Assembly: GCF_020622345.1 (NCBI RefSeq) | Contig: NZ_JACNMO010000024.1 | Location: forward strand, 1-64,000 | Direction of reading: 5' to 3' | DNA length: 64,000 bases | DNA from: Roseobacter weihaiensis | GTDB lineage: Bacteria > Pseudomonadota > Alphaproteobacteria > Rhodobacterales > Rhodobacteraceae | Part shown: piece by piece, positions 9,647-19,135 of the stretch | How the letters are laid out: each line of letters begins with the position of its first letter | How positions within the stretch are numbered: the stretch's first letter is position 1 | Notes under the pieces: generated by a model | What the model saw: the letters and a program-made list of their open reading frames with translations, nothing else | Database searches by the model: none | What the model was told of the DNA's origin: nothing | Program-made: the position numbers and the translations under genes

Positions 9647-11190
9647 TTGACCGCCACCGCATCGGGCACCAGCGTGCTCAGCACTTCGGCGGTGGAGATT
9701 ACCCCCGGCACCCCGGCACCGGGATGCGTGCCGGCCCCCACCAGATAGAGCCCCCTGGCCTCTTCGGAGACGTTATGCGGCCGGAACCACGCGCTTTGCA
9801 GGATGCGCGGCTCGATGGAAAACCCCGCGCCATGAGGGCTGAGATAGCGGTCCCGGAAGGTCTCGGGCGTAAAGACCACCTCGCTGCTGATCCTGTCGCC
9901 CAGACCGGGCAGCAGCTGATCCTCCAGCACCTTGAGCATCCTGGCCTTGTATTTCGGTTCCTCCGCCGCCCAATCGACCCCGTTGTCATGCCCCAGATGC
10001 GGCACCGGGCTGAGGACATAGAAGGTATCATCCCCCTCGGGCGCGACGCTGGGGTCGGTCACCGACGGGCGATGCACATAAAGGCTCATGTCGTCGCAGA
10101 GCTTGCCCTTGATGAAGATATCCTTGAGCAGCCCGGTATAGCGCGACCCGTTCAGGATCGTGTGGTGGCCCACATCCTGCCACTGATCGCGGGTGCCCCT
10201 GGTGCCGAAATACCAGACGAAGAGGCTCATCGAATAACGGGTCCGTTTCAGCTTGGCCGCTGTCCAGCGCCGCTTTTTGTGGCGGCGCAAAAGCTGGCTG
10301 TAGGTATGGCCCGCGTCCGCGTTGGAAACCACGACATCCGCCCCCATCTCCAGCCCGCTTTTCAGCTTTACGCCCGTGACAGAGCCGTTTCGCACCACGA
10401 TCTCATCCGCTTCGGTGTTCATCAGCAGCGTGCCGCCCTGATCCTCGATCACCCGCGCCATCGCCTGTGCCATACCCGCGAGGCCACCCATGGCGTAATG
10501 CACCCCGAATTCCTTTTCGAGGTAGGCCACCAGGATGTACATCGACGTCACATGCAACGGATCGCCGCCGATAAAGAGCGGATGAAAACTGAGCGCCATG
10601 CGCAGCTTTTCGTTTTTCACCCGTTTGGCCGCATGGGCATAGACCGACCTGTCAGCCCGCAGCATGCCAAAGGTCGGCAGCACCTTGACCAGATCCCAGA
10701 GCTTGTGCATCGACCGCCGGCCCAGATCCTCGAACCCGAACCAGTAGCGCCTGGCACTGTCTTCCAGAAACCTGTCAAAGCCCGCGACATCGGAGGGCGA
10801 CAGCTTTGCCACCTCGGCCCGCAGTTTTTCGGTATCCTGCTGGGCCACGAACCTCGTGCCATCCGGCCAGCGGATCTCGTAGAACGGATCAAGCGCCTGC
10901 AGCGTCACATCCGCATCAAAGTCACGCCCGCAGGCCGCCCAAAGCTCGCGGTAAAGCTGCGGCACCGTCACGATGGTCGGCCCCAGATCAAAGCGGTGGC
11001 CATCCTGCCAGAGGGCGGAGCCCCGCCCGCCGGGCACGTCCAGCTTGTCGATCACCGTCACCCGGTAGCCCTTGGCCCCCAGACGCATGGCCGCCGCCAA
11101 TCCGCCGAGCCCGGCCCCGATGACGATGGCGCGGCGCCCGTCGTCCTGGGCGGCCACGACAGATTCGATAGGATCAACACGTGTCATCAT
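9643..11190 (-). CDS. crtI: Phytoene desaturase (CrtI)
   Basis: CrtI is an FAD-dependent desaturase converting phytoene to neurosporene or lycopene. The 515-aa protein has the dinucleotide motif VIGAGLGGLAAAMRLGAKG and LDVPGGRG at the N-terminus and the bacterial CrtI signature LVGAGTHPGAGVPGV at the C-terminus. It starts at the first of two tandem ATGs (11190). It is the first gene of the crtI-crtB-tspO unit and divergent from crtA, with PpsR boxes between. Confidence 0.96.
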   Translation of the reverse strand: MMTRVDPIESVVAAQDDGRRAIVIGAGLGGLAAAMRLGAKGYRVTVIDKLDVPGGRGSALWQDGHRFDLGPTIVTVPQLYRELWAACGRDFDADVTLQALDPFYEIRWPDGTRFVAQQDTEKLRAEVAKLSPSDVAGFDRFLEDSARRYWFGFEDLGRRSMHKLWDLVKVLPTFGMLRADRSVYAHAAKRVKNEKLRMALSFHPLFIGGDPLHVTSMYILVAYLEKEFGVHYAMGGLAGMAQAMARVIEDQGGTLLMNTEADEIVVRNGSVTGVKLKSGLEMGADVVVSNADAGHTYSQLLRRHKKRRWTAAKLKRTRYSMSLFVWYFGTRGTRDQWQDVGHHTILNGSRYTGLLKDIFIKGKLCDDMSLYVHRPSVTDPSVAPEGDDTFYVLSPVPHLGHDNGVDWAAEEPKYKARMLKVLEDQLLPGLGDRISSEVVFTPETFRDRYLSPHGAGFSIEPRILQSAWFRPHNVSEEARGLYLVGAGTHPGAGVPGVISTAEVLSTLVPDAVAVK

Positions 11191-11206
11191 GGGGATACAG
11201 TAGATG

Positions 11207-11271
11207 TGTCTAGTTCACTTGACAATTGTGTTCTTCCATTTGCCGGGAATTAGTGTCAGACTAAATTTACA
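11207..11271. promoter_or_regulatory. Two PpsR/CrtJ operators between crtI and crtA
   Basis: TGT-N12-ACA palindromes lie at 11207-11224 (TGTCTAGTTCACTTGACA) and 11254-11271 (TGTCAGACTAAATTTACA), 47 nt apart centre to centre, in the 104-nt divergent gap. The wider spacing than at crtE/crtD suggests each box serves mainly one of the two promoters. No clear sigma-70 -35/-10 pair could be assigned. Confidence 0.8.
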
Positions 11272-11294
11272 CTTGAGAACCACGCCGCGCGCAA

Positions 11295-12011
11295 ATGACC
11301 CATACACCCATCGTCACCTTGAGTTTTTTCCGCTTTTCGCGCCCAACCACGCGTCTTTGGGCGCTGTGGATGATGGGACGCGCGCGATTTGCCCTGCCGA
11401 AAGTGGCGGGAATCGGCTTTTGGAAGCTCTGCGGATCCGGCACCGGAGAGGGCTTTACCCCCATTCCCAACACCGCTGTCTATGCCATCCTCGCGACCTG
11501 GCCGGACGAGGCCACCGCCCGCAGAGAAACCGAAACCGCCGGGATTTTTCAGGCCTATCGCGCCAGGGCAACCGAGACCTGGACCATCATTCTCGAGACC
11601 AGCAGCGCGCGCGGCGTCTGGTCCGGCGGGGCGCCCTTCAGCGCCACCGGCCGGGCCCTTGACGGCCCCCTCGCCGCCCTGACCCGCGCCACGGTGAAAC
11701 CCTCTGTCGCCCTGAAATTCTGGGGCCGGGTGCCCGACATCAGCCGCATGATCGGCGCGGATCGCAACGTCGCCTTCAAGATCGGCATCGGCGAGGTCCC
11801 GCTGCTGCATCAGGTCACGTTTTCGATCTGGCCCGACACCCGCAGCATGGGCGCCTTTGCCCGTGAAAACGGCCCCCACGCGGCGGCCATCCGCGCGGTG
11901 CGCGACGGCAACTGGTTCGCCGAAGAGCTTTACGCCCGCTTTGCCATTCTGGGCGACACGGGCACATGGGGCGGCACCAGCCCCCTCAATACATTGGATA
12001 TCCCTGCATGA
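11295..12011 (+). CDS. crtA: Spheroidene monooxygenase (CrtA)
   Basis: CrtA is the oxygen-dependent ketolase that turns spheroidene into spheroidenone, the main carotenoid of pink aerobic phototrophs. At 238 aa the length is typical. Family blocks seen are RFALPKVAGIGFWKLCGSGTGEGFTP, AILATWPDE and LHQVTFSIWPD. Its TGA overlaps the bchI ATG (ATGA), so crtA-bchI-bchD-bchO form one rightward operon controlled from the crtI/crtA gap. Confidence 0.95.
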   Translation: MTHTPIVTLSFFRFSRPTTRLWALWMMGRARFALPKVAGIGFWKLCGSGTGEGFTPIPNTAVYAILATWPDEATARRETETAGIFQAYRARATETWTIILETSSARGVWSGGAPFSATGRALDGPLAALTRATVKPSVALKFWGRVPDISRMIGADRNVAFKIGIGEVPLLHQVTFSIWPDTRSMGAFARENGPHAAAIRAVRDGNWFAEELYARFAILGDTGTWGGTSPLNTLDIPA

Positions 12012-13012
12012 AGACCCCCTTCCCTTTCTCCGCCATCGTGGGCCAGACCGAGATGAAACAGGCGATGATCCTCACCGCCGTGGACCCCGGCATCGGCGGG
12101 GTTCTGGTCTTTGGCGACCGCGGCACGGGCAAATCCACCGCGGTGCGCGCGCTGGCGGCGCTGCTGCCCCCCATCACCATGGTGGAGAGCTGCCCGGTCA
12201 ATGCGGCCACGGTGGCAGAATGCCCCGATTGGGCCGAGTTAGGCTCGAAAAAACGCGTCAAGCGGCCCACACCCGTGATCGATCTGCCGCTGGGGGCAAC
12301 CGAGGACCGTGTCGTCGGCGCGCTGGACATCGAACGCGCCCTCACCCGCGGCGAAAAGGCGTTTGAGCCAGGCCTGCTGGCGCGGGCCAACCGAGGGTAT
12401 CTCTATATCGACGAGGTCAACCTGCTGGAGGATCACATCGTCGACCTGCTGCTGGACGTGGCCCAATCGGGCGAGAACGTGGTGGAACGCGAGGGGCTGT
12501 CGATCCGCCACGCCGCCCGCTTTGTGCTGGTCGGCTCCGGCAACCCCGAAGAAGGCGAGTTGCGCCCGCAGCTGCTTGATCGGTTTGGTCTGTCGGTCGA
12601 GGTCCGCTCGCCCGATGACGTTGCCGAACGGGTCGAGGTGATCAAGCGCCGCGATGCGTTCGAGAGCGATTTTGACGCCTTCATGACCCATCACGGGGCG
12701 GAGGATGCCAAGGTCCGCGACACCATCCTCAAGGCGCGCAAACGCCTGCCCAGGATCAAGACGCCCGAGGACATCCTGACCGATTGCGCAGCACTCTGCA
12801 TCGCCCTTGGCTCGGACGGGCTGCGCGGCGAGCTCACGCTGCTGCGCACCGCCCGCGCGCTGGCGGCCTACCAGGGAGACCGGACGCTCAGCCGCGCCCA
12901 TCTGCGCGCCATCGCCCCCTCTGCCCTGTCGCACCGCCTGCGCCGCGATCCGCTGGACGAGGCAGGCTCCGGCGCACGGGTGGCCCGGATCGTGGATGAG
13001 GTTCTGGCGTGA
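12008..13012 (+). CDS. bchI: Magnesium chelatase ATPase subunit I (BchI)
   Basis: BchI is the AAA+ subunit that forms hexameric rings with BchD and drives Mg2+ insertion into protoporphyrin IX by BchH. The 334-aa protein has Walker A GDRGTGKS at residues 36-43 and Walker B YLYIDEVN at 131-138. The start at 12008 overlaps the crtA stop. It ends in a GTGA overlap with bchD. Confidence 0.97.
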   Translation: MKTPFPFSAIVGQTEMKQAMILTAVDPGIGGVLVFGDRGTGKSTAVRALAALLPPITMVESCPVNAATVAECPDWAELGSKKRVKRPTPVIDLPLGATEDRVVGALDIERALTRGEKAFEPGLLARANRGYLYIDEVNLLEDHIVDLLLDVAQSGENVVEREGLSIRHAARFVLVGSGNPEEGELRPQLLDRFGLSVEVRSPDDVAERVEVIKRRDAFESDFDAFMTHHGAEDAKVRDTILKARKRLPRIKTPEDILTDCAALCIALGSDGLRGELTLLRTARALAAYQGDRTLSRAHLRAIAPSALSHRLRRDPLDEAGSGARVARIVDEVLA

Positions 13013-14676
13013 GCGATGACACCGGCAGCTGGGACCGCGCCGCCCTGGCGCTCCGGCTGCTCAAGGTGGACAACGCGGGGCTCGGCGGGGCCGTGATCCG
13101 CATGCGCGCAGGCCCCGCGCGGGCCGCGGTGCTCGCCCAGCTTGAGGGTTTGTCCTGGCGCAAGATCCACCCCACCATCAGTGACGATCAGCTGTTTGGC
13201 GGCCTCGACCTGGCCGCGACGCTGGAATCATCTCAACTCATTGAAAATAAATCATTTTTTCACATGCAATGCCATGCATTCCTGATCATGGCAGAACGCT
13301 GTGGCCCGGATCTCGCGGCCAAGCTGGCGCGGGAAATCGACAAGGATGCGGGCCATCTGATCGTCGCCCTCGACGAAGGTGCGGAACCGGATGAACACGC
13401 CCCCCCGGCCCTCGCGGACAGGCTTGCCCTGCACATCGACCCCACGGGCCGCCTGCCGGAGGGATGGCCCGCGACACAGGCTGTCCCCGTGGGGACAGTG
13501 CCCGGCGACCCCCGCGCCGTGACCACCACAGCGGCAGATATCGAGACGCTGACGGCCCTGGCGGCTGTGTTCGGCATCGACAGCCTGCGCGCGCCCTGGC
13601 TGGCGCTGCGCGTGGCCAAGGCGCATGCCGCGTTGCAGAGCCGCAAAGAGGTCACGCAAGAGGACCTCAACACCGCCGCCGAGCTGACCTTCCCGCACCG
13701 CGCCACCCGCGTGCCGGAGACACCCGAGCGCCCGCAGGACCCCCCTGCCCCGCCCGAGGACACCCCGCAAGATGAGGACGCGGGCGACAGCGACGCGCTC
13801 TCCTTGCCCGAAGGCGACATGCTGGTGGAGGCCGTCAAGGCGCTGCTGCCCCCCGATCTGCTGGCAGGCCTTGTCCCCGCGGGGACAAGCCGCAGCGCCA
13901 GCGGCATGGGGGCCGGTCAAAAGCGCAAGGGCAACCGGCGCGGACGGCCCCTGCCCCCACGGCCCGGCAGGCTGGACGGCCGCGCCCGGATCGATCTGGT
14001 GGCAACCCTGCGCGCCGCGGCCCCCTGGCAACCCTTGCGGCGACAGGCCGTCCCCGCCGGGACTGGCCTGCATATCCGCCCCGCAGACATCCGACTGAAA
14101 CGCTATCAGGACCAATCGGACCGGCTGCTGATCTTTACTGTGGATGCTTCCGGCTCGGCGGCAATGTCGCGCCTGAACGAAGCCAAGGGCGCGGTTGAAT
14201 TGCTGCTGGCGCAGGCCTATGCCGCCCGTGACCATGTGGCCCTCATCGCCTTTCGCGGCGACGGGGCTGAGCTGCTGCTGCCGCCCACCCGGTCGCTGGT
14301 GCAGACCAAGCGACGGCTGGCCAGCCTGCCCGGCGGGGGCGGCACGCCGCTGGCCGCCGGTCTGCAGCAAGCCGCGCTGCTCGCCCGGCAAAGCCGCGCC
14401 AAGGGGCTGACCCCCACGGTGGTGGTCTTGACCGACGGGCGGGCGAATATCGCCCTGGACGGATCCGCCGACCGCGCGGCAGCACAGGCCGACGCAGAGC
14501 AGTTGGCGCAACTCCTGCGGGCGCAAAAGATCGCCAGCCTGGTGATCGACATGTCAAACCGGCCCCAGGAGGCGCTCAGAGGCCTCGCCGCGCGCCTTGA
14601 CGCGCCTTACGTGGCCCTGCCACGGGCCGATGCGCAGCGGCTCACAGGGGCTGTCAGCGCAGCCCTCGACGGGTAG
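13009..14676 (+). CDS. bchD: Magnesium chelatase subunit D (BchD), carrying internal parS-like palindromes
   Basis: BchD has an inactive AAA+-like N-terminal half, an acidic/proline-rich linker, and a C-terminal von Willebrand A domain with a MIDAS DxSxS motif beginning at D379; it bridges BchI rings to BchH. It starts at GTG 13009 (555 aa). Two things are odd. Palindromes of the GTCCCCGCGGGGAC family encode VPVGT (159-163) and VPAGT (289-293), and a degenerate copy encodes VPAGT (348-352); the first two lie in variable linkers. Codons about 73-95 (13226-13292) form an AT-rich patch, including a TTTTTT run, unlike the rest of the gene. Confidence 0.95.
   Translation: MSDDTGSWDRAALALRLLKVDNAGLGGAVIRMRAGPARAAVLAQLEGLSWRKIHPTISDDQLFGGLDLAATLESSQLIENKSFFHMQCHAFLIMAERCGPDLAAKLAREIDKDAGHLIVALDEGAEPDEHAPPALADRLALHIDPTGRLPEGWPATQAVPVGTVPGDPRAVTTTAADIETLTALAAVFGIDSLRAPWLALRVAKAHAALQSRKEVTQEDLNTAAELTFPHRATRVPETPERPQDPPAPPEDTPQDEDAGDSDALSLPEGDMLVEAVKALLPPDLLAGLVPAGTSRSASGMGAGQKRKGNRRGRPLPPRPGRLDGRARIDLVATLRAAAPWQPLRRQAVPAGTGLHIRPADIRLKRYQDQSDRLLIFTVDASGSAAMSRLNEAKGAVELLLAQAYAARDHVALIAFRGDGAELLLPPTRSLVQTKRRLASLPGGGGTPLAAGLQQAALLARQSRAKGLTPTVVVLTDGRANIALDGSADRAAAQADAEQLAQLLRAQKIASLVIDMSNRPQEALRGLAARLDAPYVALPRADAQRLTGAVSAALDG
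13481..13498. other. parS-like palindrome A, inside bchD
   Basis: CTGTCCCCGTGGGGACAG matches the palindrome family with perfect 8-nt arms and one mismatched central pair. It encodes V-P-V-G-T in a variable segment of BchD. Candidate ParB binding site by similarity to the perfect copies inside parA and parB. Confidence 0.6.
13870..13889. other. parS-like palindrome B, inside bchD (perfect, 20 bp)
   Basis: CTTGTCCCCGCGGGGACAAG is a perfect 20-bp palindrome, the longest of the set. It encodes V-P-A-G-T at residues 289-293, in the linker before the von Willebrand A domain. The central 18 bp are identical to site F inside parA, 3 kb away. Confidence 0.75.
14050..14063. other. Degenerate parS-like palindrome C, inside bchD
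   Basis: GTCCCCGCCGGGAC keeps the GTCCC/GGGAC arms but has mismatched centre pairs. It again encodes V-P-A-G-T (residues 348-352). It could be a decayed or weak site, or a chance match in GC-rich coding sequence. Confidence 0.35.
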
Positions 14677-14680
14677 CGGC

Positions 14681-15544
14681 ATGCGCTGGCCACCACCCCC
14701 CGACTGGCCGCATGCCGATCTCTCCCGTCAGATCTATTGTCGCCCGCATCGCTGGCATGTGCAGGAAACCGGCACCGGCGACACGCTGTTGCTGCTGCAT
14801 GGTGCAGGCGGCAGCACACATTCCTTTCGCGATCTGATCCGGCTGCTGAGCCAGCACTATCACGTGATTGCACTGGACCTGCCGGGCCAGGGATTCACGC
14901 AGTTGGGCGCCCGCCACCGATCCGGCCTTGAGGCCACGGCCAATGATATCATCGGACTTTGCGATCAGGAAGCTTGGCACCCCAGCGCCCTCATCGGTCA
15001 TTCCGCCGGAGGAGCGTTGGCACTGCGGCTGTCTCAGGCTCTGTTGTCCCCGCAGGGACAGCCGCCGAAGGTCATCGGGATCAACCCGGCCCTCGACACC
15101 TTCAAGGGGGTCGCAGGGGTGCTGTTCCCCGCCCTCGCCAAGGTGCTCTCCGCCGTGCCCTTCACCGCGCAGATTTTCGCGTCAACCTCTCGAACGCCGC
15201 AGCGCATAGAGGCTCTGATACGCAGCACAGGCTCTGATATCGACCTTGCGGGCCTGTCTCTTTACCAGCGCCTGATCGGAGACCGCGATCACGCGGATGC
15301 AGCCCTGATCATGATGGCACAGTGGTCCCTGGAGGGCCTGGTGGCAGATTTGCCGGATGTGGATGCAACAACTCTGTTCATCGCGGGCGACCAGGACGGT
15401 GTCGTCCCGGCCTCTGTGTCCGACAAAGCCGCAGCGCGCCTGCCAAAAGCAACCGTCGTGCATCTGCCGCACCTGGGGCATCTGGCCCATGAAGAAGCCC
15501 CGGAAGAAGTCACCGAACTGATCCGCGACTTTCTGACCGGCTAA
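14681..15544 (+). CDS. bchO: Magnesium chelatase accessory alpha/beta-hydrolase (BchO)
   Basis: BchO is an alpha/beta-hydrolase-fold protein linked genetically to Mg chelatase; its biochemical role is not settled. The 287-aa protein shows the oxyanion loop LLLHGAGGSTHSFRDL, the nucleophile elbow IGHSAGG and a C-terminal catalytic-type His in LPHLGHLAHEEAP. I chose ATG 14681, four bases after the bchD stop. The stop TAA at 15542-15544 overlaps the parB stop on the other strand, so no spacer separates the photosynthesis operon from the replication module. Confidence 0.93.
   Translation: MRWPPPPDWPHADLSRQIYCRPHRWHVQETGTGDTLLLLHGAGGSTHSFRDLIRLLSQHYHVIALDLPGQGFTQLGARHRSGLEATANDIIGLCDQEAWHPSALIGHSAGGALALRLSQALLSPQGQPPKVIGINPALDTFKGVAGVLFPALAKVLSAVPFTAQIFASTSRTPQRIEALIRSTGSDIDLAGLSLYQRLIGDRDHADAALIMMAQWSLEGLVADLPDVDATTLFIAGDQDGVVPASVSDKAAARLPKATVVHLPHLGHLAHEEAPEEVTELIRDFLTG
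15045..15060. other. parS-like palindrome D, inside bchO (one mismatch pair)
   Basis: TGTCCCCGCAGGGACA differs from a perfect palindrome by one pair. Unlike the bchD, parA and parB copies it is read in another frame (S-P-Q-G-Q), so it is not explained by a shared peptide motif. Confidence 0.5.
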
Positions 15545-16608
15545 TCCTTGAGCGCGTCCAGAAACGCGCGCGCCGCAAGCTCCAGCCTGCGCGGATCCAC
15601 GGCACCGAAATCCTGATCCAGCAAGACCTCGAATTTGCCGGCCGACGCTGTACAGCGGGCGGTGCCTTCGGGGCGGTTGAGCTTGATCGTTGTGCGGGCT
15701 GAGGATTTCGGGGCAGGGGGTTTGGCCGCCTTGGGTTTGGTGGCCCCCTTGGCCACAGCCCCGCGCAGCAGCGCAAGCTCGGTGGCGGCATCGCGATCCG
15801 GGTGGCCCTGCAAGAGCCCGCGCACCTGCCCGGCAAACCGCGGCTGCGTGTCCATCAGTTTCACCAGGCTGAGACCCGTCGCACGTGGAATCGCCTCGGG
15901 GTGTTTCAGCGTATCGCCAAGCGTGCGCAAGAGCTGCGCAAAATGCCGGATGTAGCTGCGCTTTTGCCGACCTGCCGAGGCAAAGAGCACATCCACCGGG
16001 TCGCCCCCGTACCCGATCGTCTGGCCCGTGCGCTCCCCGTAAGACATCGCAAGCTGCGCCATTTCGGCAAAGGAGATATCCCGCCGCACCATGTTTTCAT
16101 CGACCATGCGCCGGTAGAGTTGTTCGACCTGCGCGCCCCGCGCCTGCAGGGTCGCCGGGATTCGCGCGTATTTGTCCTCTCCGGTCTCGGCCAGGAGTTC
16201 GCGGTAGGCGCTCAGACGGCGAAAGCCCTGGATCAGCTCGAACCCGTCTGCCACTTCTTCCACATGGATCGGGTTAGACAGGCCGACCGCCTGGATCGAG
16301 GCCTTGAGCTCCTCGAGCTCCGGGTCGCGCTCCACCACACGGTCGCGGATCAGCTTATCCGCCCTGATCTCCTCCAGACCGATGAGCCCCACGATTTGGC
16401 CATTTTTCTTGAGCGCCACATATTCATGCGCCAGCCGGTCGTTCTCGGCGCGGATCGCGGCCTCCGCGGCCTGCCGGGCACCAAGCGCCTCGGCATTCTC
16501 GGTGATCGCCGCGGCCATCGGGCCCCGCCGTGCCTCTGCCGCCTCTTCTGTCCCCGCGGGGACAGCGCTATCGTCAAAATCGATGTCGAATACGCGGCGT
16601 TTGCTCAT
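15541..16608 (-). CDS. parB: ParB-family partition protein of the embedded replicon
   Basis: This is the centromere-binding partner of ParA in plasmid segregation. The 355-aa protein has the ParB N-terminal domain (IRADKLIRDR..ELEELKASIQAVGLSNPIHVEE), the box II-like motif GFRRLSAYREL, and a helix-turn-helix region (VRRDISFAEMAQLAMSYGERTG). Its ATG overlaps the parA stop (ATGA), so the two are one operon transcribed leftwards. A perfect 18-bp palindrome (site E) falls in codons 15-20 and encodes V-P-A-G-T. Its stop TAG (15543-15541) overlaps the bchO TAA. Confidence 0.9.
   Translation of the reverse strand: MSKRRVFDIDFDDSAVPAGTEEAAEARRGPMAAAITENAEALGARQAAEAAIRAENDRLAHEYVALKKNGQIVGLIGLEEIRADKLIRDRVVERDPELEELKASIQAVGLSNPIHVEEVADGFELIQGFRRLSAYRELLAETGEDKYARIPATLQARGAQVEQLYRRMVDENMVRRDISFAEMAQLAMSYGERTGQTIGYGGDPVDVLFASAGRQKRSYIRHFAQLLRTLGDTLKHPEAIPRATGLSLVKLMDTQPRFAGQVRGLLQGHPDRDAATELALLRGAVAKGATKPKAAKPPAPKSSARTTIKLNRPEGTARCTASAGKFEVLLDQDFGAVDPRRLELAARAFLDALKD
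16548..16565. other. parS-like palindrome E, inside parB
   Basis: CTGTCCCCGCGGGGACAG, perfect over 18 bp, near the 5' end of parB. ParB binding here could autoregulate the operon as well as seed the partition complex. Confidence 0.7.
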
Positions 16609-17909
16609 GCCTCATCCTCCAGTTTGTCCCATGCCGTCCCCAGATGGGTGCGAAATTCGTCGTAGGCCTGATCGAAGCTCGCCCGCGCGCGGCGCCATGT
16701 CTCGCGGGTCATATCGCGGTAGTCGATCTCGTAGATGGACGACAGAAAGCGGCCTGACTGCTCCACCGCGCGGGTCATCTCGATCGGGTGTTCGGCCACT
16801 CTATCGCCCCAGACCTTGATGAAAGCCTGCTGCATCGCGCGGTGCAGATCGTTGTTCGGCTCAAACCGCGTCAGCAGAAAGCGCAGGTCGAGAAACGCCT
16901 TGGGCAGCGTCATTGTCCCCGCGGGGACAAGCCCGGAAAACCGGCTGAGATCCTCCAGCGCCTCGGAGAGCTGGCCGATGAAGGAGGTGGTGGAATCATA
17001 CTCCCAATAGCCCGGACCCGACGGGATGTAGAGCATGTCGGCGGCAAAGACCGCGTTCATCGACTGGTAGCCGATGGCGGGCGGGCAATCAAAGATCACC
17101 AAATCATACGCCTCCGGCGGCAACTGGTCGAGAAAGCGCGACACGGCGGCAAAGAAGGACCATTCGGGGTTCATGTGCCGGTACTGGGCGGAGGCAAATT
17201 CGACAAAGGCCGCGTTGGCGCAGGAGGGGACGATGTCGATGGTTGGCCAGTTCGTCGGTTTGATGAAATCCGAGACGCGCAGGTCGGCCAACCCCATGTC
17301 GGTGATCGAACTGGGCAGGCGGCGCCGGGGCAGGGTGGCGCCGCTTTCGGCCCCCTGAGAGGCGGCGTTCATCCGCGTGGTCTCCGCCGCGAGATCGCGG
17401 GCCATGATCCCCCAGACGGTGTATTCCTCGGCCACATCGCTGAGCCCCATCGAATGGCTGAGCGTCGCCTGCGGGTCAAAATCGACGCAGAGCACACGGT
17501 AGCCGTCAAGGGCTGCGGCATGGGCGAAATGAAGCGCCACGGTGGATTTGCCGGCGCCCCCCTTGAAGTTGGCAATCGCCGCGCGCATCGCCCGCTTGCC
17601 CGCCGGCCGATAGGGCATCAGCGAGCGGCGGTTGACCTTGAGGCGTCGGCGCAATTCATTGATTTCATCGAGGGTGTACCAGCGTTGTCGGCCGTCTTCT
17701 TCGACCTGGCCCTGGGGCAGGCTCGGGTCTGCCGCGAGCCGCCCGCGCATGGTGGACTGGTTGACCTTGAAGATCAGTTCGGCGACCTCCCAGCTTGAGA
17801 AGCGGCGCAGGGTCTTTTCATTCTGCGGGCTGTAGGTCTGCTGGCGAATGAACCCCTGCATCTTGAGCGATTGCGCCTGAAGCTGGGCGAGATCTTTGTG
17901 GGTATACAT
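16605..17909 (-). CDS. parA: ParA-family partition ATPase of the embedded replicon
   Basis: ParA is a Walker-type ATPase that moves or positions plasmid copies together with ParB. With the ATG at 17909 the protein is 434 aa. Residues about 35-100 form a MerR-like DNA-binding region (RRFSSWEVAELIFKVNQSTMRGR), followed by the deviant Walker A KGGAGKST at 116-123, CVDFDPQATLSHSMG and VIFDCPPAIG. The N-terminal DNA-binding extension is the large-ParA type that represses its own operon. A perfect palindrome (site F) encodes V-P-A-G-T from residue 328. The frame is open upstream to 18029, but that stretch belongs to the origin-like region. Confidence 0.93.
   Translation of the reverse strand: MYTHKDLAQLQAQSLKMQGFIRQQTYSPQNEKTLRRFSSWEVAELIFKVNQSTMRGRLAADPSLPQGQVEEDGRQRWYTLDEINELRRRLKVNRRSLMPYRPAGKRAMRAAIANFKGGAGKSTVALHFAHAAALDGYRVLCVDFDPQATLSHSMGLSDVAEEYTVWGIMARDLAAETTRMNAASQGAESGATLPRRRLPSSITDMGLADLRVSDFIKPTNWPTIDIVPSCANAAFVEFASAQYRHMNPEWSFFAAVSRFLDQLPPEAYDLVIFDCPPAIGYQSMNAVFAADMLYIPSGPGYWEYDSTTSFIGQLSEALEDLSRFSGLVPAGTMTLPKAFLDLRFLLTRFEPNNDLHRAMQQAFIKVWGDRVAEHPIEMTRAVEQSGRFLSSIYEIDYRDMTRETWRRARASFDQAYDEFRTHLGTAWDKLEDEA
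16913..16930. other. parS-like palindrome F, inside parA
   Basis: TTGTCCCCGCGGGGACAA, perfect over 18 bp and identical to the core of site B in bchD. Confidence 0.7.
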
Positions 17910-17948
17910 CGGGGGCCTGTCTCTGCTCGGATCATGTATCGGAACCCT

Positions 17949-17964
17949 CGTCCCTGCGGGGACG
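17949..17964. other. parS-like palindrome G upstream of parA
   Basis: CGTCCCTGCGGGGACG, one mismatched pair, lies 40-55 nt upstream of the parA start codon and could act as an operator for parAB autoregulation. Confidence 0.5.
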
Positions 17965-18146
17965 CAAATTCCGGGTTTTCCAAGATTTACGCGGATTTGG
18001 AGAAAAACGCAAAAGGGAATATCCTGCACCCGGGAAAAAGCGCAGAGCCGCGCAGACCCTCAAAGACGGGCGAAAGAGGGAGAGGACCCGATTCTGGAGA
18101 TTTCGGCCCATGAACACCCAAAGAGCTTGGCGCCGCCCCCAGATAT

Positions 18147-18226
18147 GGGGGACAGTCTTGCAGGCACACCAGCCTATTGGGGGACAAAAGGGCCGGAATA
18201 GGGGACAGCGTGAGCGTCCCCCAATA
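18147..18226. repeat. Four GGGGAC repeats (iteron-like)
   Basis: GGGGGACA occurs at 18147-18154 and 18179-18186, GGGGACA at 18201-18207, and an inverted copy GTCCCCC at 18216-18222. The second copy sits in TATTGGGGGAC (18175-18185) and the inverted copy in its exact reverse complement (18216-18226). GGGGAC starts are 32 and 21 nt apart, near three and two helical turns. The repeat is also the half-site of the palindromes in parA, parB and bchD, so it may be bound by ParB, the initiator, or both. Confidence 0.6.
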
Positions 18227-18457
18227 CCGTATATACCTGTTTTCATGATTTGAAATGGATCAGGATTTGCCGTGGACCAAAGCTTCTTCGAACTCCAGAC
18301 TTGACAGAATCGCCGTTTAGGACGCAAATCAGGGCAGGACGGTGAATAGCGTTGGAAATGAGCGCCCGTCTCCAAAAAAAGAGGCTGACCCATCAGCCCG
18401 TTCCCGAGGCACGACCGGCACATCCCGCGCCGGACATCATTGCAGCAAAGGCAGCCT

Positions 18458-19135
18458 ATGCTTTCCACGAAACCTGTGGGCCGTGGCGCGGCTGCGCGTA
18501 AATACGATCTGCTCACGGCTCTTGGCGCTTTTGCATTGGCGCAGGACAAGTTTGACCAGCGACGCGCGCTCCGTCTGATGACCCTGATCACAGCAAGATA
18601 CAATTGGGCCCGCGATGAGCTCGCCGTGGGCCAGCGCGAGATTGCCCGGCTCTGGTCCGTGGACGAACGTACCGTGAAACGCGAGATGGCGCTGTTGCGG
18701 GCGCGCGGCTGGCTGGTGGTCAGACGGCAGGGTGCGCGGGGCCGGGTCACGCAATACGGTCTGGGGATCGACCAGATCCTGCGGGACACAGAGCCGCAAT
18801 GGCCCGCTGTAGGCTCTGATTTCGAGCTGCGCATGGGCGGCGCGGACCCTGCGAAGGTGGTGGCCCTGCCGGTGAGCGGCGCGGTGCCGGCCCCCGATAT
18901 CACGTCAGGCACCGAATGGGCGCTGGCGCAGGCGCTGCTGCACGCCGAGGATGCCGCGAGCTACGCGGCGTGGCTCGCGGCACTGGAGCGGGCCGAGAGG
19001 GCAGGGGGGCGGCTGACGCTGCGGGCGCCGTCCCGGTTCCACGCGGTTTACGTGCAGACCCACCTGGAACGCCGCGTGCTGCTGGCCCTGCGCGAGATCG
19101 ACGCGGAGATCAGCGAGCTGCGGGTGGTTGTGTAG
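18458..19135 (+). CDS. DnaA-like plasmid replication initiator
   Basis: A 225-aa protein with two recognisable parts. Residues about 55-100 form a winged helix (VGQREIARLWSVDERTVKREMALLRARGWLVV). Residues about 165-225 resemble domain I of chromosomal DnaA: SYAAWLAAL, then GGRLTLRAPSRFHAVYVQTHLERRV and a final ELRVVV strand follow the order seen in DnaA's WIRPLQ..LALYAPNRFVLDWV. The AAA+ and DnaA-box-binding domains are absent. Such short DnaA-like replicases are known from Roseobacter-group plasmids, usually next to parAB. I chose ATG 18458 with AAAGG upstream; a TTG at 18440 is in frame. Confidence 0.85.
   Translation: MLSTKPVGRGAAARKYDLLTALGAFALAQDKFDQRRALRLMTLITARYNWARDELAVGQREIARLWSVDERTVKREMALLRARGWLVVRRQGARGRVTQYGLGIDQILRDTEPQWPAVGSDFELRMGGADPAKVVALPVSGAVPAPDITSGTEWALAQALLHAEDAASYAAWLAALERAERAGGRLTLRAPSRFHAVYVQTHLERRVLLALREIDAEISELRVVV

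Follow-up and report, generated by a model that had tools for sequence, protein, structure and literature searches.

The Roseobacter weihaiensis contig NZ_JACNMO010000024.1 (assembly GCF_020622345.1, 5.35 Mb) carries photosynthesis genes, and the first 64 kb of its 80.6 kb (positions 1 to 64,000, forward strand) are here called the window. In the window, the bacteriochlorophyll genes bchD and bchO (bchDO) lie next to the partition genes parB and parA, and a short palindrome, GTCCCCGCGGGGAC, recurs in all four genes. Our comparison with related genomes indicates that these palindromes very probably constitute the centromere (parS) sites of a DnaA-like plasmid carrying the photosynthesis cluster, the copies in bchD and bchO being predicted targets of the plasmid ParB. 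Biosynthetic genes would then double as centromere DNA, with silent positions revealing the selection.

With at most one mismatch, GTCCCCGCGGGGAC occurs seven times in the window (at 13483, 13873, 14050, 15046, 16550, 16915 and 17950), all inside 4.5 kb: three copies are in bchD, one each in bchO, parB and parA, and one upstream of parA (Table 1). These are the seven palindromes of an earlier, sequence-only reading; their ends match the sequence, and at this threshold none exists elsewhere in the 64 kb, since all other window matches listed for GTCCCCGCGGGGAC have 3 mismatches. When up to 3 mismatches were allowed, the total of 14 was unremarkable (shuffles gave a mean of 9.9, and 13 of 100 were as high), and the signal therefore resides in the near-perfect class. 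For GTCCCYGCRGGGAC with up to 2 mismatches, the window holds 8 matches compared with 1.6 expected, a count reached in none of 100 shuffles. Throughout the assembly, 10 places match GTCCCCGCGGGGAC with at most one mismatch; seven are the window copies around parB, which include all 3 perfect ones, and the other 3 are imperfect, an unequal genome density that bears out the earlier reading. Synonymous codon shuffles, 200 for each window gene, gave 0.28 expected sites in bchD against the 3 seen (0/200 as high) and 0.04 in bchO against 1 seen (7/200 as high). Whichever of the four genes they lie in, most perfect copies have a T and an A directly flanking the 14-mer, which makes the conserved word 16 bp long, TGTCCCCGCGGGGACA.

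We compared 26 loci with an adjacent parB (13 from genomes of the genus and 13 from outside it; eight short duplicate parB-class loci were dropped) with 88 control loci. The controls comprised 20 loci already in hand, 60 extra regions, 4 loci whose parB relative is 16-45 kb off or on another contig (L126, L128, L130 and L142), and 4 genus loci; further matches stayed outside the count. The parB-adjacent loci held 75 sites of the window type, hereafter type I (50 in bchD and 25 in bchO, 63 of them perfect), in 64.1 kb of bchD plus bchO, whereas 220.6 kb of the same genes from the 88 loci without a nearby parB held none. When a second palindrome type, described below, is included, sites are present in bchD or bchO of 25 of the 26 parB-adjacent loci and of 0 of the 88 others. 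Several controls carry such a parB on another contig (e.g., G001, G035, G104 and G386, that of G001 being type I) and are still site-free. When the site columns were left out of the tree, the palindrome tracked parB in 9 or 10 of 10 independent pairs, taken on well-supported branches, and opposed it in none (p = 0.002-0.004). Within the genus (19 genomes), both bchD and bchO carry sites in all 13 of the 13 genomes that have the module; the corresponding figure for either gene is 0/4 in those with bchD and no such parB (G394, G395, G396 and G409), and G400 and G403 are without bchD.

A second set, made up of a named collection (80 loci) and six annotated plasmid stretches, overlaps the first (~19 shared loci, judged by eye). 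Among its 86 bchD loci, sites were present in 17 of 18 with parB, the exception being Sulfitobacter sp. S190, compared with 1 of 55 without it (L259); 13 loci were too short for parB to be judged, and one of these, L263, has sites, of type II.

The sites were also mapped relative to parB. Between 6 kb before and 12 kb past the parB end, 305 sites were counted, 301 of them within 4 kb of that end. In the 48 par loci whose sequence extends 8 kb or more beyond the parB 3′ end, 103 sites fall at 0-3 kb and the interval of 5-8 kb is empty. Up to 3.5 kb on the parB 3′ side, photosynthesis loci carry 74 sites in 24 loci (3.1 per locus), whereas other loci carry 45 in 36 (1.25 per locus), and the furthest site beyond parB lies at a median of 2.05 kb in the former versus 27 bp in the latter. 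Palindromes inside coding sequence occur at distances of a few kb or less from the par genes, coding and noncoding classes having been assigned with a crude open reading frame (ORF) picker.

Some individual loci add detail. In L119 (G063:C17, 6740-10587), which has a parB relative, type I sites are found within bchD and parB and shortly beyond bchO, but the 17 kb read contains no match to parA or the replicase. L141 (G397:C10:979000-998000) has the whole module and perfect sites inside a contig of 1,074,209 bases, which is either a very large replicon, a chromosome-integrated plasmid or an assembly join. L127 (G247:C13, 3754-8533) contains an orphan parB relative and two type I words next to what appears by eye to be a separate repABC-type module, and at L143 (G034:C1, 7942-8873) an orphan parB relative is accompanied by two type II words, bchD lying ~33 kb away on the same 4.15-Mb contig. 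At the non-photosynthesis locus L164 (G088:C12, 7977-8560), the parB 3′ end is closely followed by a type I array with ~55-bp spacing, which is a classic arrangement for a centromere.

Palindrome type and ParB type

A blind palindrome search was run within 4.5 kb of 70 parB genes, and the type found was compared with ParB alone. The search returned type I, GTCCCCGCGGGGAC, in 45 loci, type II, TTCCCCGCGGGGAA, in 20 and other palindromes in 5, and perfect copies of both types were found together in no locus. On the ParB tree, the three palindrome classes need 8 changes, compared with a mean of 22 when the labels are shuffled; the repeated palindrome is specific to the ParB type, as in a ParABS system. 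Cognatishimia sp. MH4019 (L118, G105; L261) has type II in its par region, the only such case among the 26 photosynthesis loci. In L118, perfect copies of TTCCCCGCGGGGAA lie in bchO, at the codons that hold the type I site in others and there read CSPRGT, and in bchD at residue 347; L263, on a short contig, carries the same type II pair with identical spacing between the bchD and bchO copies. The type II word occurs in bchD or bchO of 0/88 controls. This natural swap, seen by comparing sequences, suggests that it is ParB that reads the word.

Neither word was found in bchDO or parAB of S. guttiformis pSD118, which has a RepB-type replicase and its own parAB at the same place; a palindrome of its own was sought there as well, and none of at least 12 bp is repeated in bchDO plus parAB. 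Neither word is present in the stretch read of Sulfitobacter sp. S190 (ParB 32% identical), in which one TTACCCGCGGGTAA lies near the bchO and parB ends, or in Roseinatronobacter sp. S2, whose cluster is on a 613-kb plasmid with no parAB beside bchO. The stretches read of S. alexandrii likewise hold neither word, the position of parAB there not having been located.

The sites might instead be bound by the ParA N-terminal domain or by the DnaA-like replicase, an alternative that we consider improbable. One copy lies ~40 bases upstream of parA, where it may possibly act as an operator as well as parS. Moreover, replicase and parA are co-inherited neighbours, so that their types would track the sites too. 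However, the origin has its own repeat, which does not change with palindrome type, and L119 keeps a parB relative and sites without a parA or replicase match. Furthermore, the 14-bp palindromes of related repABC plasmids are RepB sites (PMC5613091), and RepB binds parS (PMC9040568).

If ParB is the reader, as we favor, the plasmid ParB would bind the 16-bp word, load as a CTP-dependent clamp and spread, and ParA would move the resulting ParB complex at division, by analogy with the ParB/RepB family. The 3′ ends of bchO and parB meet head-on with a 4-base overlap, so that no free DNA is left on that side of parB; the centromere would have been written instead into bchO and bchD through silent or tolerated changes. 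Comparison of the loci suggests that selection on the DNA would act while bchDO adjoin parB, would follow a change of ParB specificity and would lapse after a move to the chromosome. Plasmid maintenance may depend on the bchDO copies; three of the seven palindromes, though, are located within parAB or ahead of it. A further idea is that expression and segregation are mechanically coupled, ParB clamps in bchD/bchO and transcription interfering with each other and the bchDO array locking the cluster to the partition genes; we hold this to be doubtful.

It is quite improbable that the sites chiefly regulate the bacteriochlorophyll genes, with ParB as a repressor or roadblock, rather than serve partition. 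The orientation would suit such a role, as bchD-bchO run head-on towards parBA and a ParB complex would cover both; however, non-photosynthesis plasmids share the words in and around parAB, and one of them, L164, has the words in a regularly spaced array.

DNA word and encoded peptide

The sequence-only reading had proposed that the DNA rather than the peptide is selected and that the copies in BchD, ParB and ParA encode V-P-A/V-G-T. The three bchD copies encode VPVGT, VPAGT and VPAGT; the bchO copy encodes LSPQGQ and not VPAGT. VP[AVT]GT was found in 21/26 BchD proteins with an adjacent parB and in 0/88 without it, so that the peptide conservation off the replicon which would have refuted the sequence-only reading was not seen; SP[RQ]G was found in BchO of 22/26 loci with parB. 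Near BchD 347/348, lineages differ in how they read the word (VPAGT, xSPRGQ or RPRGDG), and in BchO it is read in two frames.

Selection on the DNA was examined at silent sites, by means of invariant degenerate codons in 12 genus members. In bchD, one third base is used throughout in 15/193 codons, namely in 6/7 at the sites versus 9/186 elsewhere (p = 5e-7); in bchO, this holds for 7/76 codons, 3/3 at the sites versus 4/73 elsewhere (p = 5e-4). The word is conserved while frame and peptide vary, and selection is visible at silent sites, in agreement with the first proposal. Codon-level conservation in bchD/bchO can thus stem from DNA and not from protein.

These data bear on the view that a peptide motif (VPAGT or SPRGQ) is conserved in the proteins and that the DNA word merely follows. 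Within the genus, the bchD copies do occupy the same codons and specify almost identical peptides. We nevertheless regard this view as very improbable, given the three frames near BchD 347/348 and the two in BchO, the absence of VP[AVT]GT from all 88 BchD without parB, and the third bases frozen at the site codons. Chance, or a bias toward G+C-rich words, has a negligible probability: the count at 3 mismatches is as expected and some relatives (G399 and G266) have scattered copies on other contigs, but the genome count, the controls, the silent-site constraint and the swap all speak against it.

Exceptions and decayed sites

Several observations weigh against the centromere explanation. Gene by gene, the single sites in parB (25/200) and parA (54/200) are within the synonymous-shuffle expectation. 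SP[RQ]G occurs also in BchO of 3/88 controls. L124 (G116) has a parB adjoining bchDO, yet its bchD and bchO are free of sites at the one-mismatch threshold, and L123 (G335) has one imperfect site only, in bchO. Copies far from the module are found in G266 (five perfect, on other contigs) and G399 (two perfect and eleven imperfect, on the chromosome contig), and G409, from which the module is absent, has one perfect copy. L118 retains one parA word that is nearer to type I. ParB residue 214 is Arg in 45/45 type I proteins but also in L118, which is type II; as a candidate specificity residue it separates most type I from type II and fails in L118, so that it does not account for the change of ParB specificity. 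The predicted ParB structure agrees poorly with ParB structures over the whole chain (TM score 0.2-0.4, root mean square deviation 11-17). Finally, L259, a metagenome bin locus (10001-15660), keeps three bchD/bchO sites, of which one is perfect and the others are near-perfect; the 4.2 Mb bin contains no close parB, only a distant relative (34%), which reflects either a recent loss of parB or an incomplete bin.

Two side observations concern these genomes. The scattered copies, on G399:C1 and on contigs C1, C4, C7, C9 and C18 of G266, are more numerous than in most relatives. In L259, a pair of IS21-like transposase genes, named by eye from the reading frames, lies just past bchO.

G395 has a chromosomal cluster and is sister to R. 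litoralis on the tree; we take it to resemble R. denitrificans OCh114. At the places homologous to the sites, its words have 3 (BchD 159), 2 (BchD 289), 5 (BchD 348) and 4 (BchO 122) mismatches and encode APAGT, APAGT, VPTRT and SPQEQ. Among the 88 controls, G395 ranks best at BchD 159 and 289 and ties with 11 and 3 other controls at BchD 348 and BchO 122, respectively. These words look like decayed remnants of sites, and as such they would agree with the chromosomal re-entry of the R. denitrificans cluster that was inferred from a tree (Brinkmann et al. 2018, PMC6052148). A general fossil signal in chromosomal clusters was sought and rejected: over the 88 controls, the mean best-match percentile at the five homologous places was 0.49-0.73, where ~0.5 means no signal. 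As only G395 stands out, the data speak neither for nor against a former plasmid life of the remaining chromosomal clusters. The sites could serve as a sequence mark for which chromosomal photosynthesis clusters once sat on such plasmids; decayed sites (as in the R. denitrificans-like genome) and near-intact ones (as in L259) would mark recent moves, older moves leaving no visible trace. In viral contigs, no BchD relative was found.

The replicon and related systems

DnaA-like replicons of the Rhodobacterales were reportedly described by Petersen et al. in 2011, who are said to have proposed palindromes of the replication module as centromere anchors and to have distinguished two compatibility groups. 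The replicon type is the same here; that study reportedly dealt with the replication module. For repABC plasmids, parS sites are on record inside ORFs downstream of repABC, including cas3, casA and casB, and are described as having arisen in coding sequence several times, the authors suggesting selection even in coding DNA (Czarnecki et al. 2022, PMC9040568). Those sites resemble ours in being parS words in coding sequence beside partition genes of Rhodobacterales plasmids; they differ in belonging to repABC, with the cas arrangement in six contigs, whereas ours belong to a DnaA-like replicon, and the parts of that paper covered here include no photosynthesis genes, ParB-type swap, comparison with off-replicon genes or silent-site test. 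The sequence-only reading that photosynthesis genes, bchD and bchO, carry partition sites is supported, but this is less unusual than it had implied, as bchDO lie less than 3 kb from parB and parS in neighbouring ORFs had been published for repABC plasmids.

The DnaA-like I module is described at one central place in photosynthesis gene clusters, the chromosomal cluster of R. denitrificans nesting among plasmid clusters (PMC6052148). The window has the same kind of module inside the cluster, and in the main text of that paper a word search finds neither 'palindrom' nor 'centromer'. A remark on R. litoralis in PMC3176799 concerns, in the passage at hand, the par genes and not bchD/bchO sites. 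In 14-bp RepABC palindromes, single base-pair differences set compatibility (PMC5613091); likewise, one changed pair separates the groups here, GTCC...GGAC versus TTCC...GGAA, although that work concerns repABC groups 1 and 2, with sites near repC. No paper that places sites of this kind within bch genes came up in our literature search, which fell short of most subscription journals. Already known were the role of palindromes as ParB anchors, the place of the module in the cluster and parS inside ORFs of repABC plasmids (cas genes); as far as our searches show, the new elements are a centromere that runs on through bchO and bchD, the change of its word along with the ParB type, and its absence off the replicon.

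Table 1. Palindromes, genes and origin-like region around the partition module, in window positions
Feature	Position	Strand	Basis or remark
bchD palindrome, one mismatched pair, encodes VPVGT	13481-13498		homologous copies across genus
bchD palindrome, perfect 20 bp, encodes VPAGT	13870-13889		sequence
bchD palindrome, imperfect, encodes VPAGT	14048-14065		perfect at same codons in G398 (R. litoralis) and G266
bchO palindrome, one mismatched pair, encodes LSPQGQ	15044-15061		sequence
parB palindrome, 5′ part, perfect 18 bp	16548-16565		sequence
parA palindrome, 3′ part, perfect 18 bp	16913-16930		parA copy also in most non-photosynthesis plasmids of same type
palindrome with one mismatched pair, ~40 bases ahead of the parA start	17949-17964		similar position in other loci
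bchD, magnesium chelatase subunit D	13009-14676	+	NCBIfam PRK13406 669 bits (cut-off 571); Pfam VWA and AAA lid domains; three palindromes inside
bchO, alpha/beta hydrolase of bacteriochlorophyll cluster	14681-15544	+	NCBIfam TIGR03056 328 bits (cut-off 172.55)
parB of DnaA-like module (RepB-like)	15541-16608	-	84% to R. litoralis pRLO149_94; top Foldseek hit ParB 7bnk, E 1.1e-7
parA, RepA-like Walker ATPase	16605-17909	-	NCBIfam partition_RepA E 7.6e-63, 213 bits, under curated cut-off 348; Pfam AAA_31 over cut-off
origin-like region between parA and replicase	17910-18439		GGGGGACA repeats 18147-18154 and 18179-18186; conserved word CTTGACAGAATCG 18300-18312
DnaA-like replicase gene	18440-19135	+	Pfam DnaA_N 19.6 bits (under cut-off 24.6); homologues adjoin parAB in most par loci

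The closest named plasmid found was R. litoralis pRLO149_94 (BchD 81%), in which the same overlap of the bchO and parB ends is annotated; published papers assign its replicon to DnaA-like I. In the window, parAB adjoins the DnaA-like replicase gene, as in DnaA-like I replicons, judged by gene order and a DnaA_N match under its cut-off. The module is not of the repABC kind, its replicase being DnaA-like and transcribed away from parAB. A ParA Walker ATPase, RepA-like and under the RepA cut-off, adjoins ParB, as expected of ParABS. ParB sequence profiles are weak (Pfam ParB_N, 21.6 bits with a cut-off of 26.3; NCBIfam RepB, 30.7 bits with a cut-off of 201.5). Its predicted structure (pLDDT 75, pTM 0.46) matches ParB/Noc structures in Foldseek at E ~1e-7, and its single domains match sulfiredoxin (TMt 0.71) and the SopB DNA-binding domain (TMt 0.5-0.6 at E 0.06-0.2). 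On this model we count the protein as having a predicted ParB fold, a ParB/sulfiredoxin-like N domain followed by a helix-turn-helix DNA-binding domain. GC skew in the window turns from negative to positive at ~16-18 kb.

The GGGGAC half-sites that the sequence-only reading had assigned to the palindrome in the origin turned out to belong to a separate repeat, GGGGGACA. This repeat is present with both palindrome types, in 33/36 type I and 18/18 type II origins, and is therefore better read as an origin repeat. CTTGACAG occurs in 34/36 type I and 16/18 type II origins. Most origins, whether type I or type II, also retain the word CTTGACAGAATCG, a candidate replicase site or promoter.

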